Assembly (NCBI GenBank): GCA_016183775.1
Contig: JACPDY010000035.1
Location: 1-36,031 of the forward strand
Source: Bacteroidota bacterium
Lineage (GTDB): Bacteria; Bacteroidota; Bacteroidia; JABDFU01
DNA: 36,031 nucleotides
Direction: 5' to 3'
Positions within the stretch are counted from its first letter, which is position 1; the number at the start of each line of letters is the position of its first letter. The notes under the pieces are model-generated. The model was given only the letters and a program-made list of their open reading frames with translations. It had not been told where the DNA came from and ran no database searches. Below are positions 18,372-28,817 of the stretch, in pieces. The position numbers and the translations under genes were made by a program.

Positions 18372-19166
18372 ATGTTAAATAAACCAAAAGACAAAAGTCA
18401 ACTGGGCTTGTACAGCACATTTGAAGAGCAATTAAATTCTCAACATGGCCTTTGCAAATTGGCCAATGTGATTGATTGGGACTTTTTCGATGATGCATTT
18501 TCAAAAACATTACAGTGCCACGCAAGGCAAGCCAGCTAAGCCCATCAGGCTGATGGTATCATTGTTAATACTGAAACAGGTCAGAAATTTAAGTGATGAA
18601 TCAGTAGTGGAGCAGTGGGCCGAGAACAGCTACTACCAATACTTTAGTGGCGAAATTTTTTTTGTTCAAACTACCCATGTGTTCCAACTGAATTGGTGGA
18701 GTTCCCCAAACGTATTGGAACAGAAGGGGTGGAGTTGATATTGAAAGAAAGCATTCGGGTTAATGGTGATGATGCAAATGACAGTAACTTCAGCGGTGAT
18801 ACCACCATACAAGAAAAAAACATCACCTACCCAACCGACGACAAACTGTACAAGAAAATTATTCATAAATGTCAATCGATAGCAGAACAAGAAGAAATAG
18901 AACTGCGACAAAGCTACACTCAAACAAACAAGAAGCTGAGCATAGTTCAGTGCTTACGCAAAAATAAAGGAGGTGATGTAAAGGCACGCAAAGCAAGTAA
19001 AAAGGTTAAAACAATTGCAGGCAGATTGGTAAGAGAGATTGAGCAAAAGCTTTCACTACAGTCGTTGCAACATTATGCTAACGATCTTGCCCTTTACACT
19101 CACAGAACAAAGCATAAAAAAAACATGTGGATTTGGGTATGTTTTTTCAAATATAAATTGGACTAA
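18372..19166 (+). pseudogene. IS5-family transposase, frameshifted and truncated
   Basis: Three frames together give one IS5-type transposase. Frame A (18372-~18505) encodes MLNKPKDKSQLGLYSTFEEQ...NVIDWDFFDDAFSK. A shift in the A5 run at 18503-18507 leads to frame B (to ~18676): HYSATQGKPAKPIRLMV..., LSDESVVEQWAENSYYQYF. A second shift near 18676 leads to frame C: VPTELVEFPKRIGTEGVEL..., DTTIQEKNITYPTD, ending with TAA at 19164-19166. The first catalytic Asp region (DTTIQEKN) is present, but the part after THRTKHKKN is shortened and the later DDE residues are missing. The element cannot make an active transposase. Its DNA does not resemble the second IS at the right end of the window. Confidence 0.85.
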
Positions 19167-19345: not shown

Positions 19346-22300
19346 TTACTTTGAAAGGAGTATTTTCTTTGTCAAATACAATTCGTCAGAGGTGAACTCA
19401 ACAAGATATATTCCGGTTTCAATATAAGGGAGTGTAAATTTAACTTTACCAGGAATATTTTTTTCGTTGTACTCAACGATTTTTTGTCCTGCAGCATTGT
19501 AAATGTTTACGACCGTGTTCTTTGTTACACGATCTTTAAATTCAATAATAATATCAGACCCACTATTATATATGTTAATATTATCATGGCCGGACGGTCG
19601 TTTAATATTGGTTAATTGATCATTCAAAACAACTATACTTTTAATAACGGTATCACTGCATAATTTATTGGAGGTAATCAACCGGATCGGGTAAACCCCC
19701 GTAGCAGAATAGCTATACGGCATAGGCAACGGTTGCGTTGAATTTGTTCCGTCACCAAAATCCCATGCATAAAAACTTGCATCACTAACGTATGTGATTT
19801 TAAGTGGTAATCCTGCCGGGATGAACAAGGTGTCATTATCAATGTTAAAATCAGCCACTAACCAGTCGTCAGAAGGAATTATTTCCCCATTGGCAGTAAT
19901 TGAGCAATTATTGCTGTCGGTTACCTGTACAAAGTAACTGCCTAATGACAATGAAGAAATAATTGATGCAGTTGAGCCATTGCTCCATAAGTAAGTGTAT
20001 GGCTGTGTTCCTCCTGAGATATTTAGGCTCAATTTGCCGTCATCCGTTCCTTTACAGCTTACTTTAGTTGATGTAATTGCAGGAATCAAAGGGGAAGGTT
20101 CACTGATTGAAATAGCTTGTGTGGATGAACCGCACATTCCATCGGTTCTCTCAGACGTTATAAAATATTCTCCTGCTGTCAATCCGGTTATAGTATCTGC
20201 CTGTGAAATGTTTAAATCAGAATGGATGGTATTTCCAATGCTGTCTTTTACCATATAATTCAGGGTAAAATTATCCGGGCTGTTCAAAACAATAGAACCA
20301 TCATTGCTGGTATTACATGTTGGCTCCTGTATTGCAATGTTAGTTGCAACAGAAGGGTATATGTGGAGTATAAATCTGTTAACGGGGACCGGTGAAGATG
20401 GCAAATTGAATGTGTAGGGATTAATTCTGATATCCGCCTCATTGCCGGTTGCCAGATCTTTCAGGATCAAACAGGCATCTGCCGGTATATTCATAAGATT
20501 GTTAACAGAGATCGTGTATGATCCCCCGATTGCTGATTTCACAAATAAAGGAATGCTCATTTTTTGATTTAACTCCGGGAGTGAATTAACACTCAATACA
20601 ACGGAGTCGCTAGATTTCGATGAAATATAAGGTACGTTTGTGTTGGTGCTTTCAATTTTAAACGCGTCAAGGTCCGCGTCTTTATTTACTGTAGCGCTTT
20701 CCATGAATCTGATCAGCGTTTCATCTACAAAAGAATTAGAAGAGCCGGAAATTTTTAGTGACAAATAAGATGCCGGGGTTGGTGCAAGTTTCCAAAAAGA
20801 AGGGGAGGGCTCACTATTCACTTTTACATTTTCGGTTATGTTTAGAGCCGGGCCTGCCGCATTCGTTTTCACCATGAAGGCTTGGGAGGAAGCAATATAT
20901 TGTGTGCCGCCATTTATTCCCGGGCCGCCTGCCGGATAACTCGCGTAATTTTGGGTAATATTGTTCCATGCATAATAAGTGTTTCCCTGGATATTTGTTC
21001 TGGTCCAGCCGGAAGCATCCCAGTCAATTGTGGAAGGATAGGGGTTGCTTACTAAATTCCATCCATCATCAGCATTTCCCGAGTTGTTGTATGTTACCGG
21101 TAGAGTTTGATTTCCTTTATTAGGACTTCCGGGAATATCAAGTGTAACGGGAATATTTGTTGAATAAACATAAACTGCAAATCCTTTTCCTGCAGTAAGT
21201 GGATTGGTAATATTTGTCGCGTTTTTCCAGCCAGTCGAGAAAGCTCCTGCTACTGATTCATCATATGTATATGTATTACACCAATAGGTAGGCTGGGTAC
21301 TTCCGGGAAATCCGTCAAAACGCAATTCCGGTGTCAGGTCGCTCAGTGTGCCACCCACTGCCGAACCAATATAACGATAGCCCTGGGAGCCGGACAGATA
21401 GCGTTGCATTGTAATGTTGCCAACAAAGTTTGCAGGTGTAGATAAGGCCGCTATGTTCGCTGTTTTTGATGAGGTAGATAATAATGTAAATTGGTTATTC
21501 GTATTGAATGTTCCCGTTCCATTCAGGGAAATGGTGCCTTTTAGCCTTTGAGCGCTTGAAAGTGTAACAGCTGCACCTGTTGAAATATTGAGGTTGTAGA
21601 AATCGGCAATACTACTGCCGGAAATTGTTTGGGTACTTCCATTGAAATTAACAGTTCCGGTTCCGGAGGTAAATGTTCCGCTGTTACTCCAGTTTCCTTC
21701 AATATTAATTGTGTTTGCTCCCGCGTCCAGCACAGAACCAAGTGTGAGATTTCCAATAACTGTAATGTTATTTGCAAGTGTTTTGGTTCCGGAACCTGAA
21801 AAAGAAATATTATTAAAAGTTTCGCCTCCGCTTTTTGTTATGGCTTGTGAAGAACTTCCGTTTAACGTAACAGTTCCAAACCGTGATTGAAAAGTTCCGC
21901 TATTGGTCCAGTTTCCATCAACACTTAACGAATAATTCGATGAACTTACATCCAATGTGGATCCGCTAATGGATATATTTCCGTTAACAACCGTAGTTCC
22001 GCCTAAAGTTTTTGTTCCGGAACCCGAAAGGCTGAGGTGGTAGTAAATTATATTTTTTATTGTTTGTGCAGAAGATGACCCATAACTGGCTGTATTGCCG
22101 GATGCATTTGCGATCAGCCCTGTAAGTGAAAATACCGGGGAATTAATGTTTAGCGTAGCCCCGGCAGCATTCACAAGTGTGTCCGATCCGGCCAGCGTTC
22201 CGGTTACTGTTAGTGTTCCATTATTGGTTGTGCGGACATTAATAGTGAGTTTGGCCAATGATCCTGTTCCGCTTATAGATTGACCGGAAGTTGTTTGGAG

Positions 22301-25300
22301 AACGATGCCGACTGTAGAGCTGGTTAAAGTGGAACCAAGAGTCAATCCCCCTGTACTTGTAAGTACTCCGGCAACAGAACCTGTAATGTCTCCCGTTCCG
22401 TTTATTATAATCCCGGATAGCCCGACATTTGTCGTGTTTGCTGCTGTCCAGTTAGCGGTCCCATCAATAGTAAGTTTTGTACAGGCCCCGGGGTTTCCAT
22501 TCATTGTTATAGTATGCCCGGAAGCTATCTGGACAAAATCAGCTGATGTCGGGGCAATACCGCCAACCCACGTTGCATCTGTAGTCCAGTTGCCTGAGCC
22601 TGCACTTACAATAACTGAGCGGATAGTTACCGGTAAATTTACTACATCGCTTCCTGCACATAACCGGGTAGTGGTAACCTGTACATTGCCCGCCCCGGCT
22701 GCACCCCAGTCAACAGTAATCGAATTAGAAGTACCTCCGCTTGCCTGTGTTCCTCCTGTTATCGTCCAGGAATAGGTATATCCGGGGGTGGCTGTTACAG
22801 AATAGGTAATACCGGTTTGAGATGCAGCAACTGATGTTAACCCGGATATGGCTGAAGTCGCTATAGGGTTAACATAAACAGGCAAAATAACCGGGGTGTT
22901 GTTGTCGCCGCAATCATTTGTTTCGGTTACCTGAACGCTTCCAAACATACCTGTGGCACCCCAGTTTACGGTAATTGAATTAGTTGTTCCTCCTCCGGCC
23001 TGAGTACCTCCGGTTATTATCCATGTATAAGTGTTGCCTGTTGTGTTTGTTACGGAATATGCTTCACCACTTGCATTCGTACAAACTGAAGCGGATCCTG
23101 TAATACTTGATGCACTGAAAGGAGAACAGGAAGTATTACCCAGTGCAAATTGCGCAGATAATCCGCTCATTAAAGTGCGTTTTGCCGTTGATCCGCTTGC
23201 ACTTGTGTGGGTTCCATCAATAGTCCAGGGGTTACCGGATGCAGACCTTTTAATGATCCTGGTAGATGATTTTATGGTATAACTGGTAAACCCATTTCCC
23301 GTTAGCTCAAGGTTATAATCAGTACTTGCAAGGCCATCAGCGGCTGTTAAATCCCAGTAACCTTCTGTAAATTGGTTTGTAATTGAAAAACCACCGTCAG
23401 CAAGTGGCAGGCCATTGTTTCCTGGATCAGTACCGGTAAATTGAACAGTAAGCGACCCGCTTGTAAGATTTGTAAACGTAATTAATGTAAGCCGGTTATA
23501 ACCGGATGTACCCACGGGGAAAGAAATTCCGGTACCGGTAGCATTAATCCATCTTTTAAATTTTCCAATGATCGTTCCAGTGCTGTATGACATAGAACCT
23601 GCAGAAACAATACTTGTTCCCAGTGTTAACGTGTTTGATCCGCAATCAATATTTCCAGCGGTTTGTGTAAGCGAATTAGTAGCAGTGACATCATTGATGA
23701 GTGTAAGAGTGCCGCCGGATTTATTAATGGAAAGATTATAAAATGTTTCACCTCCGATTTTAGTTATATTTTGCGTTCCAGATCCATTGAAAGTTACCGT
23801 TCCGGTACCAGGTGTAAATGTACCGCTGTTAGTCCAGTGACCGCCAACAGTAAAATTAAAGCCATTAGCATTCAGAGCGCCTGCAGTTACAGTAAAATGA
23901 TTAAATACCTGTAGGTCGGCCGAGAGTTGTGCGGTAGCGTTTAAACTGTTTGTAGTAAAATTAGCGAGGGCTACTGCCGAGTTAACCAGAATAGTTTGCC
24001 CGGCAGGGGTTGATGCATCGCCTATCTGTAAGGTGCCGTCAGTAACATTAAATGTACCGTCCGATGTTGTAAAGCCAAGGTTACCCGCTCCGGCCCGTTC
24101 AATTATTATAGTACCACCAGACATGGAAAACAAAGAACCTACTACATCCATTGTGAAGGGCGCTAAGGCCGCTGTAGTGGAACCTATGGTTGGAGCAGTC
24201 AACGTGCCTCCTGACATAGTAAAACTGGTAATTGTAATATTGTTAACCCGGTCAAGACGTCCGGCAATGTTTAAAGCACCACCGGTAATTTCGACAGAGC
24301 CACCATAAGAAGTAATATTTTCATTAGTTGCATTGCCAACATTTAAGGTACCCGCACTTACTTTAATACCGCCATACAAAGAAGCTGTTCCCTGCATATT
24401 TACCGTTGCGGAAGGGTTATTTATCCATATCCTTCCGTTTGCAGGAATGGTAGAATTGCCCGTATATGGAGTTATAGTTCCTGAAGTGGAAAATTTAAAT
24501 GTTCCGTTAGTTAATGTAAGCAGATTATTGGGCATTGAAAAATTAGTGGAAGTAATATCCAGCATGTTGTTCTGCGAAGAGCCCATATTAACGGTAACTC
24601 CGTTGAAATTGGTAAGGGTGCCACTGCCACTTACCGTTTGATTACCATTGTTGTTGAATGTAACATTGCATAAACTGCCGGCATCGGTTGCCATATTAAA
24701 GGTTCCGTTGTTTGTTATGTTTCCTGTAAGATTGAATATATGCGTAGTGTTAGAAGCCGCATTCACCTCAAAGGTTGCTCCTGAAGCAATTGTAACATTT
24801 CCTGTAACAGTAAGTGTTCGGGCTGTATTATTACTACCTATTCGTAATATTCCGCTTGTTCCCTGCCCAACCGTAAGATTATAGCAGGAAGCATTGGCAT
24901 TTATAGTTACAGTATGACCATTCGCGATCGTAACATTATCACTTGTTGTCGGAACCACCCCGGTATTCCATGTGCCACCGGTATTCCAGTTTCCTGTTGC
25001 TACTGACACAATGTTGCCTGCATTATTAGTTATTTGATTTCCGGAAAGGGCGGCACTTAAGGCTCCTTCTGTTACCGCGTATACTTTCCAGTAATAAGTT
25101 GTGCTGGGCAATAGCCCGGTAATGTTTGAAGATATCGCGTTGGCTGCGGTTTGACTGCGGTAACTATAAGTAATATTATCCGTTGATTGATAAATGGCAT
25201 AACCCACTTCATTACTCGCCCAATTGGCCCAGTTAAGTGTCATGGCTGAACTGGTTACTCCTGTAAAAGTCAGTGAGCCTCCGGGATTTGCAGGAGTAAG

Positions 25301-26062
25301 AGGTGTGAAAGTAATTTTGGAATCGGATGCAGGTATAGCAGAAAGACCATTTTGTACAGCATTGCTGAATGTAGCAGTATTCGCAGTTTGTTGTGTCAGA
25401 AGTTGAGCTGTAGTGGGTGACGCGCTTATTGTACCGGCATTTATTCCGCATGAATATGACCAGGTCGCGGTGCCGGCCGTCATTGTACCATATATAAATT
25501 CGATAACACCTGTAGTTTCATATATTTTTACCTGGAAATTGAGGTTCGGCGTGGTATTTCCATATACAGCCATGTTGATCCACTCTACAGTAAGAATTCT
25601 GTTGGGGGCTGATCCGCTTAATTCATACTTAATACTTCCTCCCAGGGGGTCGCCCCCGCCCTGAGTGGTCATATCATCATACATAGGTGCAAGCGCTAAA
25701 CCGGTAGGGGTTGTACTTGAAAATCTTGTATTCTGATATCCATATGCGCCGGTGGTAGGCCCTCCGTCGGCGGCAGAAGACGAAAAATCAAGATAACCAT
25801 TCGTGGAAACACTGATTTGAGTATAGCGGGTACCATTGTACCAGAAATCAAAACCTATATTTGTAGCTATACTTCGGTTATCATCCTGGCTAAACCCACC
25901 TGAATAACGCCAGCCACTGAATGGAGAGCCCGTTGAAACAATGGAAGTGTATGTTATTCCCGTACTTCTTGATGCGGAATAATTACCAACACTTTGCGAA
26001 AAAACAAAGTGCTGAACCAGCAAAAAAACAATTGCGATAAATATGCCTTCCCGAATTCTCAT
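19346..26062 (-). CDS. Giant modular T9SS-secreted surface protein
   Basis: A 2238-residue protein. Signal peptide: residues 1-23 (MRIREGIFIAIVFLLVQHF...SQ). About 24-258 form an N-terminal beta-rich domain (IGFDFWYNGTRYTQISVSTNG, APMYDDMTT). A fibronectin III-like domain covers about 260-345. Two blocks of beta-helix-like repeats (about 350-860 and 1150-1540) begin with GNWNTGGTWNTGVVPTTSDNV and GNWTTDATWVGGIAPTSADF and contain units such as NGSGTQNITKIGGETFYNL. Two Ig/PKD-like domains lie at about 985-1150 (TYTWIITGG, TYSWTITGG). A jelly-roll-like region follows, then SprB-like repeats at about 1905-2055, a PKD domain with WDFGDGT near 2100, and a type A sorting domain over the last ~80 residues (NIYNAAGQKIVEY, IETGIYLVEFTSDE). 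The PNP motif usual at the start of type A domains is absent. The function is probably adhesive or structural. Confidence 0.88.
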   Translation of the reverse strand: MRIREGIFIAIVFLLVQHFVFSQSVGNYSASRSTGITYTSIVSTGSPFSGWRYSGGFSQDDNRSIATNIGFDFWYNGTRYTQISVSTNGYLDFSSSAADGGPTTGAYGYQNTRFSSTTPTGLALAPMYDDMTTQGGGDPLGGSIKYELSGSAPNRILTVEWINMAVYGNTTPNLNFQVKIYETTGVIEFIYGTMTAGTATWSYSCGINAGTISASPTTAQLLTQQTANTATFSNAVQNGLSAIPASDSKITFTPLTPANPGGSLTFTGVTSSAMTLNWANWASNEVGYAIYQSTDNITYSYRSQTAANAISSNITGLLPSTTYYWKVYAVTEGALSAALSGNQITNNAGNIVSVATGNWNTGGTWNTGVVPTTSDNVTIANGHTVTINANASCYNLTVGQGTSGILRIGSNNTARTLTVTGNVTIASGATFEVNAASNTTHIFNLTGNITNNGTFNMATDAGSLCNVTFNNNGNQTVSGSGTLTNFNGVTVNMGSSQNNMLDITSTNFSMPNNLLTLTNGTFKFSTSGTITPYTGNSTIPANGRIWINNPSATVNMQGTASLYGGIKVSAGTLNVGNATNENITSYGGSVEITGGALNIAGRLDRVNNITITSFTMSGGTLTAPTIGSTTAALAPFTMDVVGSLFSMSGGTIIIERAGAGNLGFTTSDGTFNVTDGTLQIGDASTPAGQTILVNSAVALANFTTNSLNATAQLSADLQVFNHFTVTAGALNANGFNFTVGGHWTNSGTFTPGTGTVTFNGSGTQNITKIGGETFYNLSINKSGGTLTLINDVTATNSLTQTAGNIDCGSNTLTLGTSIVSAGSMSYSTGTIIGKFKRWINATGTGISFPVGTSGYNRLTLITFTNLTSGSLTVQFTGTDPGNNGLPLADGGFSITNQFTEGYWDLTAADGLASTDYNLELTGNGFTSYTIKSSTRIIKRSASGNPWTIDGTHTSASGSTAKRTLMSGLSAQFALGNTSCSPFSASSITGSASVCTNASGEAYSVTNTTGNTYTWIITGGTQAGGGTTNSITVNWGATGMFGSVQVTETNDCGDNNTPVILPVYVNPIATSAISGLTSVAASQTGITYSVTATPGYTYSWTITGGTQASGGTSNSITVDWGAAGAGNVQVTTTRLCAGSDVVNLPVTIRSVIVSAGSGNWTTDATWVGGIAPTSADFVQIASGHTITMNGNPGACTKLTIDGTANWTAANTTNVGLSGIIINGTGDITGSVAGVLTSTGGLTLGSTLTSSTVGIVLQTTSGQSISGTGSLAKLTINVRTTNNGTLTVTGTLAGSDTLVNAAGATLNINSPVFSLTGLIANASGNTASYGSSSAQTIKNIIYYHLSLSGSGTKTLGGTTVVNGNISISGSTLDVSSSNYSLSVDGNWTNSGTFQSRFGTVTLNGSSSQAITKSGGETFNNISFSGSGTKTLANNITVIGNLTLGSVLDAGANTINIEGNWSNSGTFTSGTGTVNFNGSTQTISGSSIADFYNLNISTGAAVTLSSAQRLKGTISLNGTGTFNTNNQFTLLSTSSKTANIAALSTPANFVGNITMQRYLSGSQGYRYIGSAVGGTLSDLTPELRFDGFPGSTQPTYWCNTYTYDESVAGAFSTGWKNATNITNPLTAGKGFAVYVYSTNIPVTLDIPGSPNKGNQTLPVTYNNSGNADDGWNLVSNPYPSTIDWDASGWTRTNIQGNTYYAWNNITQNYASYPAGGPGINGGTQYIASSQAFMVKTNAAGPALNITENVKVNSEPSPSFWKLAPTPASYLSLKISGSSNSFVDETLIRFMESATVNKDADLDAFKIESTNTNVPYISSKSSDSVVLSVNSLPELNQKMSIPLFVKSAIGGSYTISVNNLMNIPADACLILKDLATGNEADIRINPYTFNLPSSPVPVNRFILHIYPSVATNIAIQEPTCNTSNDGSIVLNSPDNFTLNYMVKDSIGNTIHSDLNISQADTITGLTAGEYFITSERTDGMCGSSTQAISISEPSPLIPAITSTKVSCKGTDDGKLSLNISGGTQPYTYLWSNGSTASIISSLSLGSYFVQVTDSNNCSITANGEIIPSDDWLVADFNIDNDTLFIPAGLPLKITYVSDASFYAWDFGDGTNSTQPLPMPYSYSATGVYPIRLITSNKLCSDTVIKSIVVLNDQLTNIKRPSGHDNINIYNSGSDIIIEFKDRVTKNTVVNIYNAAGQKIVEYNEKNIPGKVKFTLPYIETGIYLVEFTSDELYLTKKILLSK

Positions 26063-26507: not shown

Positions 26508-28817
26508 TCAGGACGCTTTCGCGTACCTGTAATTTTCATATTGTTTGGAATAGTACTGCAGCCTTCTGATCCTGACTTTGTTCAGGATCAGGTGAATTTT
26601 AAAGCGATTCTTTTCTATAATCTCATCCACTTGAGTCAGCGAATTTTGATATGGAGCTATGGCATTTAGAATGTAAATATTTAAATCAGTAAACTGCATC
26701 AGTGTCATCGCATCAGAAATAATACCTACAGGCGGGGTATCTATAATAACGTAATCAAAATTGTCCTTCCCGTATTCAATGATCTTCCGGGTTGTTTCAT
26801 TCAGTATTTTTTCTGAGGCTTCACTTATGGTTGTTTTTGATATTATTGCAAAAAGATTCTCAATTTTAGTATTAATAATTGTTTCCGGTATACTTAGTTT
26901 TTCTTCAAATATTTCGTTCATGCCGGTTTCTTTATTTCTTAATCCCAATACATTGGCAAGGTTGGGTTTATGGAAGTCCATGTCCAATAGCAAAACTCTT
27001 TTTTTTGTTTTTGCCAGTATTGCCCCCAGGTTAACCGCATTAAAAGTTTTTCCCTCTGCCGAATTATGGGAGGTTATAAGAATAACTTTTGTTTTTTTTC
27101 CGGCAAGTTCAAATTAAAGGTTTGTACGAATCGATCCTAAAAGAGATGATCCCAGCGGGTGATTAAGGGTGTCATAAATAGTATTGAGTTTTTTCTTGCT
27201 TAATTCGATAAATGGCATTTCCCCCAAAATAGGTATGGCGGTTTTTGATTTCAAATACTCCATAGTTTCTATAGATTCATAAAAAAAGTTTTTGATATAT
27301 ATGATGCCTGCGGATATGGCTAAAGCAAGGATGATATAAAAAAATAATTTCCCATTATCGGCCGGCATACTTCTTTCAATGATATGTGCGGATTCAAATA
27401 TCTTGTATTCGGGTGCCATGGCAGCCTGGGCAATAAGTATATTGTTCCTTTTTTCTAAAAGGTTCATGTACATTGCTTCATTTACTTTCAATTGCCGCTT
27501 CAGATCCATTAAATACATCTGATTGTTGTTAAACAGGTTTCCTTTTTCAGAAGGTTCATCAATAGCTGTAATTTGCTTCTGGAAGTATGCTATTTTGTCT
27601 TCAACCGTTTTCTGGCCGTTTTGTATATACTTAAGCAGGTCGTTTTTCCTGTTCTCGTAATTATTATCTATTTTATGTATAACTATGCTTTTTTCTGTGG
27701 CATCAAATAAGTTTTCGTTTTTATCTAAGTGCATGTCATATAATTCCGATAAGCTGGTTTGCAGAAAATTGTCATCAATTTCGCCAAAGTAGGGTGGAGG
27801 AAGGCCTTTGTTGTTTTTGTTCTCAACAATATATTTTTCCAGATCAGCAAGCATAATTCGCTGCAATTCAAGTTTTCTTTTGTCGATCATCAGGTTGGTT
27901 AATTCCGAAACATATTTCTGTTCGGCAATACTTTCATTCATCATTCCGGTTTTCATGCTGTATTTACGCAGACTGTCTTCAACATTTCTTAAAATTCCTT
28001 CAGTTCCGCGCAGCAGCTTGTCGATCCCGTTAACCATTTTATAATTCCGTTCGATCTGTGATTTAATGGTATTGTTGAGATATACCTTTGCAAGTGTGTC
28101 AAGGAACGCTACTGCTCTTGCCGGAAAAATATCCCTGTATGTGACCTGTAATACAGCCAGGTCCTTTGTGAGCTGAGTGCTTAACATAGATTGGTACTTT
28201 CCGACAAGAGACGATTTGTCGTGTATCTGAACAAAATAATCAGTTTGTTTCACCTGATTTGTGAGGGTATCTCCAGGGAACTTTTTTTCTACAAGAAGTT
28301 TTATCTCCGGATCTGTTATAGCACTGTCAAAAAAGCAACGATTCTTAATAGTTGTTTTCAGTTTGTCGTAGCTATATTCGAACTCGTTTTCATTGATAAC
28401 CCTGAACTTAATAAACTGTTCATGCAGCGCGGGATCTATAAGGACTGTTATTATATTAAAGGGCTGAGTGCCATAGATCTCTACATAATTTTTATTTTCT
28501 TTTATATAATAGGAAACATCCAGATTAAGGCTTTCAATGGTTTTTTGCATTATACTGGGAGCATTTATCCCGGTCATTTCATCAGAGTAATCAGTGTAAT
28601 TTTTGGCATTAGCTTCATTATACTTAAGTGAGATTTGTAATTGCGCAAGTGCACCTTCCACACGGGTGGCGGTATAATAGATATAACTGCTTATTGCCAC
28701 AACCAAGGCAATTGCAACTATATACCAATTATTAACAAACAACTGCCAGGCTCTCCTCACTGTACTCAACTGGATCTTGGCCTGTTCATTTAGCTTGTTT
28801 TGATTTATTATTTGCAT
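26508..28817 (-). pseudogene. Wzc-like polysaccharide co-polymerase / tyrosine kinase, interrupted by an in-frame TAA
   Basis: One continuous frame of 770 codons, with a TAA at 27114-27116 (codon 568). Upstream 567 residues: transmembrane helix 1 (about 31-50), a Wzz-type periplasmic region with coiled coils, transmembrane helix 2 (about 495-515), and TAIPILGEMPF. Downstream: Walker A SAEGKT (586-591), Walker A' LLLDMDFHKPN, Walker B YVIIDTPPVG, and a tyrosine-rich tail YYSKQYENYRY typical of BY-kinases. The frame does not change across the stop, and no ATG, GTG or TTG lies between the stop and Walker A, so a separate kinase with a complete P-loop could not start normally. The stop may be a recent mutation, a sequencing error, or a read-through site. 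If it is real, polysaccharide export regulated by this kinase is lost. Confidence 0.82.
26566..26591. repeat. 10-bp inverted repeat inside the kinase coding region
   Basis: CTGATCCTGA (26566-26575) pairs with TCAGGATCAG (26582-26591) around a 6-nt loop. It encodes LILNKVRI, which matches the expected protein family pattern, so it may simply reflect codon choice. Confidence 0.4.

Follow-up and report, generated by a model that had tools for sequence, protein, structure and literature searches.

A single in-frame TAA interrupts an orphan Wzc-like tyrosine kinase gene in a Bacteroidota genome

The window analysed here, a stretch of 36,031 nucleotides from a Bacteroidota bacterium, carries on its minus strand (26508-28817) an orphan gene of the Wzc-like PCP-2a / BY-kinase type, a class of polysaccharide co-polymerases and tyrosine autokinases. 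Read from 28817 to 26508, translation yields one Wzc-like frame of 769 codons plus a final TGA. The product of 28817-26505 runs M...SIRTNL, a stop, FELAGKKTKVILITSHNSAEGKT...YAKAS and the terminal stop, with no frameshift along the way. The internal stop is the only one in the frame, a TAA at minus-strand positions 27116-27114 (codon 568), and it lies 22 codons ahead of the Walker A lysine. The part before it (27117-28817, minus strand) encodes 567 residues with two transmembrane segments, recognised by eye, a periplasmic region and a GNVR-like segment, and ends in SIRTNL. The part behind it (26511-27113, minus strand) is the kinase half, 201 codons that are probably untranslated. Here the P-loop kinase domain of a Wzc-type BY-kinase is preserved with intact Walker A (SHNSAEGKT), A' (VLLLDMDFHKPN) and B (YVIIDTPP) motifs, followed by a C-terminal tyrosine cluster, YYSKQYENYRY, that is also present in a 43% identical homologue.

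Pfam and NCBIfam profiles recognise both sides of the interruption, with GNVR/Wzc similarity upstream of the stop (residues 430-543) and AAA_31 and eps_fam tyrosine autokinase matches downstream. The AAA_31 match to the post-stop part reaches 1.4e-18, and the eps_fam model TIGR01007 scores 115 bits, above its cut-off of 108.05. Since the family matches lie on both sides and a same-genus orthologue with 91% identity is open across the site, the interrupted frame is not a chance overlap of unrelated reading frames. The next in-frame ATG, GTG or TTG after the TAA is a TTG at 26993-26991 of the minus strand, 40 codons downstream. It lies 19 codons beyond the Walker A lysine, so that a product begun there would be without the P-loop. 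Two near-cognate codons precede Walker A, an ATT at 27083-27081 (codon 579), which follows an A-rich stretch, and an ATA at 27077-27075. An earlier note on this DNA had described a single in-frame TAA at 27114-27116 in an otherwise unshifted frame, two halves that read as one protein, the absence of an ordinary start before Walker A and an undamaged kinase half. That observation is correct in every checked detail: the translation bears out the stop and the frame, domains on both sides and 744 collinear residues in one frame of a same-genus species bear out the unity of the protein, the first ordinary start lies beyond Walker A, and the kinase motifs are intact and under constraint.

The overall layout of the gene resembles that of E. 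coli Wzc and Etk (PDB 9xgv, 7nhr, 3la6, 3cio), with a membrane anchor, a periplasmic part, a GNVR-type segment, a second membrane helix, a P-loop tyrosine kinase and a tyrosine-rich tail in the same order. Solved Wzc structures match residues 428-766, spanning the stop. However, whereas Gram-negative proteins of this type carry the membrane activator and the kinase on one chain, and the relatives of the window gene form one open frame, the window gene is interrupted by the TAA at codon 568. Also unlike the E. coli systems, no wza, wzb or glycosyltransferase gene was recognised among its neighbours, and the EX2RX2R motif of the oligomer interface (helix alpha 2) is degenerate in both the window gene and its uninterrupted relative. 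The motif, at residues 556-564 of the window protein, reads SSLLGSIR in both, with one more residue than the usual TESF-RSIR, and it is already altered to SVFLRSIR in the 43% homologue (L005). Judged by these motifs, there may be a subfamily of orphan Wzc proteins with a possibly different ring assembly.

The window gene is flanked by a large T9SS-type surface protein and by gldF/gldG-like genes, both named by eye; for an ABC-2 membrane protein on the gldF/gldG-like side there is support from a profile search. Neither wza nor sugar genes were recognised in the window. The adjoining surface protein (19346-26062) has 2238 residues with PKD and fn3 domains and a type IX sorting tail. Beyond it, at 18472-19166, two overlapping frames hold transposase remnants (DUF772, 2.7e-11), apparently a decayed insertion element that separates the surface protein from a prmC-like gene. 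In a congener (G001) an adhesin-like surface-protein gene adjoins gldF with no Wzc gene between them; the frame directly beside gldF there (L068:10623-17489) is similarly giant, with 28% identity over part of its length. Because the Wzc gene is missing from this spot in the congener, we regard it as accessory in the genus. The genome of the window encodes two other complete, uninterrupted Wzc-like kinases, on contigs C1 and C3. The C1 paralogue directly follows the sole Poly_export/Wza gene found in the genome and precedes a frame that, by eye, reads like an rfbC-type sugar epimerase.

Homologues were searched for in 198 related genomes, with matches in 171. Apart from the window's own, none of the roughly 150 matches listed contains an internal stop. 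The nearest relative, from the same genus (G002, JAEUTS010000088.1), is 91% identical at the protein level over 744 residues and its frame is open up to the end of its contig. The earlier note had proposed comparing the codon of the closest relatives, and this comparison gave a Glu codon at the stop position in the nearest relative and a sense codon in all 31 further homologues that could be aligned across it, two paralogues from the genome of the window included. The residue in these 31 is Glu or Gln except for one Asp and one Gly. Two of the search records (L004 and L037, the latter being the nearest relative) are the same and were counted once, and the close-relative comparison consists of one genome, G002, whose contig ends within the gene. 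On these alignments, the TAA is private to the window assembly among the genomes compared.

Comparing the window gene with its G002 orthologue reveals strong constraint on both sides of the stop. The dN/dS is 0.053 before it (95% bootstrap range 0.035-0.074) and 0.045 after it (0.022-0.083), with overlapping ranges. When changes are assigned to branches with the 43% homologue and others as outgroups, the post-stop part shows five amino-acid changes on the window branch, five on the sister branch and one undecided, and the pre-stop part shows 27 against 22. Neutrality of the kinase half throughout the branch would predict about 131 changes where five are observed; even without any baseline, the 95% bound confines relaxation to about 8-9% of the branch. 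An old pseudogene is ruled out by this constraint on the kinase half. Given such constraint, the stop would have to be very recent, unless the base is an error or unfixed or the kinase is still made.

A survey of stops in 2.02 Mb (45% of the genome) shows how common such interruptions are in this assembly. With at least 100 open codons required on each side, 117 stops were found, 11 of which are coding-like on both sides and are followed by at least 15 codons free of starts. Neighbouring genes account for most of the 11, and at most three look truly split, the window Wzc included. Apart from the Wzc gene, one of the 11 is clearly split, on contig C100 (L166:14174, minus strand): 1942 open codons lead up to a TGA inside a PKD domain, the rest of that domain and a CHU_C type IX secretion signal are cut off, and the 38 codons that follow contain no start. 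Contig C94 (L160:7934, minus strand) holds another possible case, an in-frame TGA flanked by two coding-like stretches, of 209 and 101 codons, that match nothing in Pfam. Nonsense splits of this sort turn up a few times per genome here, whether their source is mutation, a mixture of strains or an error in the consensus.

This last origin has to be weighed for the window gene itself. The TAA could be a consensus error, an assembly error being among the options of the earlier note, or an artefact of a metagenomic strain mixture, in which case the dominant genotype would carry a sense codon and the gene would be intact. The assembly is fragmented into 164 contigs, the TAA is the sole lesion in the gene with an unrelaxed kinase half behind it, and an error would be expected to leave just such a lone difference in a gene that is otherwise perfect. 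However, single-base errors are rare in deep short-read consensus, and such splits are not widespread in the assembly, with just two or three in 2.02 Mb. We consider an error or mixture possible, although rather unlikely. The intact and constrained kinase half would also fit read-through at a useful rate, which would give a mix of kinase-less and full-length protein and set the dose of kinase; to this extent the constraint also speaks against a nonsense mutation, as it would fit full-length synthesis by this route. The conserved stop of programmed read-through is lacking here, as the position is not a stop even within the genus and is sense in the 32 other aligned homologous genes. TAA is moreover the commonest stop in this genome, ending 385 of 741 long frames in the 2.02 Mb sampled (TAAT occurs 109 times), and this usage rules out a genome-wide reading of TAA as sense. 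Folding of the local RNA is no better than that of shuffled sequences (z = 0.16), Rfam has no match anywhere in the window, and no suppressor tRNA was found by ARAGORN in 45% of the genome, a weak test with 14 tRNAs in all. Read-through at a useful rate is, on this evidence, very unlikely. The earlier note had reasoned from the absence of other damage to either a recent event or read-through; a recent event does predict an undamaged kinase half, but read-through does not follow from it.

In Staphylococcus aureus CapA/CapB (PDB 3bfv, 4jlv, 4jmp) the membrane and kinase parts are separate chains, as the two parts of the window gene would be, and CapA/CapB chimera structures match residues 512-758 of the window protein. 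A new split pair could have arisen if the kinase were begun separately at the near-cognate ATT of codon 579 and worked together with the shortened membrane protein in the manner of CapB and CapA; an A-rich stretch precedes this ATT at 27083, and a product from there would keep Walker A. However, ATG, GTG and TTG are absent before Walker A, and because the A-rich stretch consists of Lys codons that are found in the uninterrupted relative too, it is no new start signal. The break point also differs. In CapB of S. aureus the EX2RX2R helix belongs to the kinase chain and residue 55 is the catalytic lysine (PMC3795738), which places the CapA/CapB boundary upstream of that helix and about 54 residues before the lysine. 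In the window gene the corresponding helix lies ahead of the break, the lysine follows 22 residues after it, and the kinase half has no ordinary start. The start codon and the break point rule out a natural CapA/CapB-like split, in line with the doubt about such a pair voiced in the earlier note, and make a newly formed pair exceedingly improbable. Phase variation by slippage or inversion that toggles the frame is scarcely credible either. A-runs do lie nearby (A6 at 27194-27189 and A8 at 27099-27092), but the frame is unshifted, so slippage cannot remove the stop, and a compensated double slip would hit stops in both other frames; because these stops lie between the A-runs, the runs cannot carry a ribosome round the TAA. 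No close inverted or tandem repeats were found at the site. With no frame change, closed alternative frames and no repeats, slippage and phase variation of this kind are ruled out. The read-through or phase-variable control that the earlier note had listed among its options has gained no positive support, given an unconserved stop, ordinary RNA, blocked +1 and +2 frames and no repeat or homopolymer at the site. We consider it highly improbable that the TAA is read through, or a near-cognate kinase start used, at a controlled rate, and that this lineage has only just begun to convert a one-chain Wzc into a split BY-kinase with a membrane part and a scarce kinase.

The most probable reading, which we favour with some confidence, is that a nonsense mutation arose very recently in an orphan Wzc gene that the organism can do without. 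A single disabling change, a sense codon in the relatives and little or no relaxation characterise a recent pseudogene, and the window gene displays all three. This was also among the options of the earlier note, and it gains from the sense codon of the nearest relative and from the undamaged, constrained downstream half. A single-base nonsense change, very recent in evolutionary terms, would have turned codon 568 into TAA. Ribosomes should halt there and release a 567-residue membrane protein with neither the kinase domain nor the tyrosine tail, and the kinase half should go unmade for want of a usable start. A nonsense mutation of this kind presupposes that the TAA base is real in the organism and that termination at it is efficient, and it would entail that the function is lost and the loss tolerated. 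Tolerance is probable given the accessory status of the gene in its genus and the two other complete Wzc-like kinases of the genome.

A comparable route of gene loss is known from evolution experiments with Klebsiella, in which non-capsulated clones arose through premature stops or altered reading frames in the genes wcaJ, wzc or rfaH (PMC9376106). A premature stop in wzc, the type of lesion seen in the window gene, is one of the routes by which these mutants lose the capsule. The Klebsiella mutations affect the capsule locus itself, whereas the copy in the window is an orphan and belongs to an uncultured bacterium; capsule loss in Klebsiella serves here as a comparison and not as evidence on the window organism. 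The interruption of the Wzc gene looks like an ordinary event rather than a new form of gene control, and bears on no open recoding question. If the base is real, it would represent ordinary early-stage gene decay in an accessory polysaccharide regulator and would suggest that the orphan Wzc is dispensable in this lineage.
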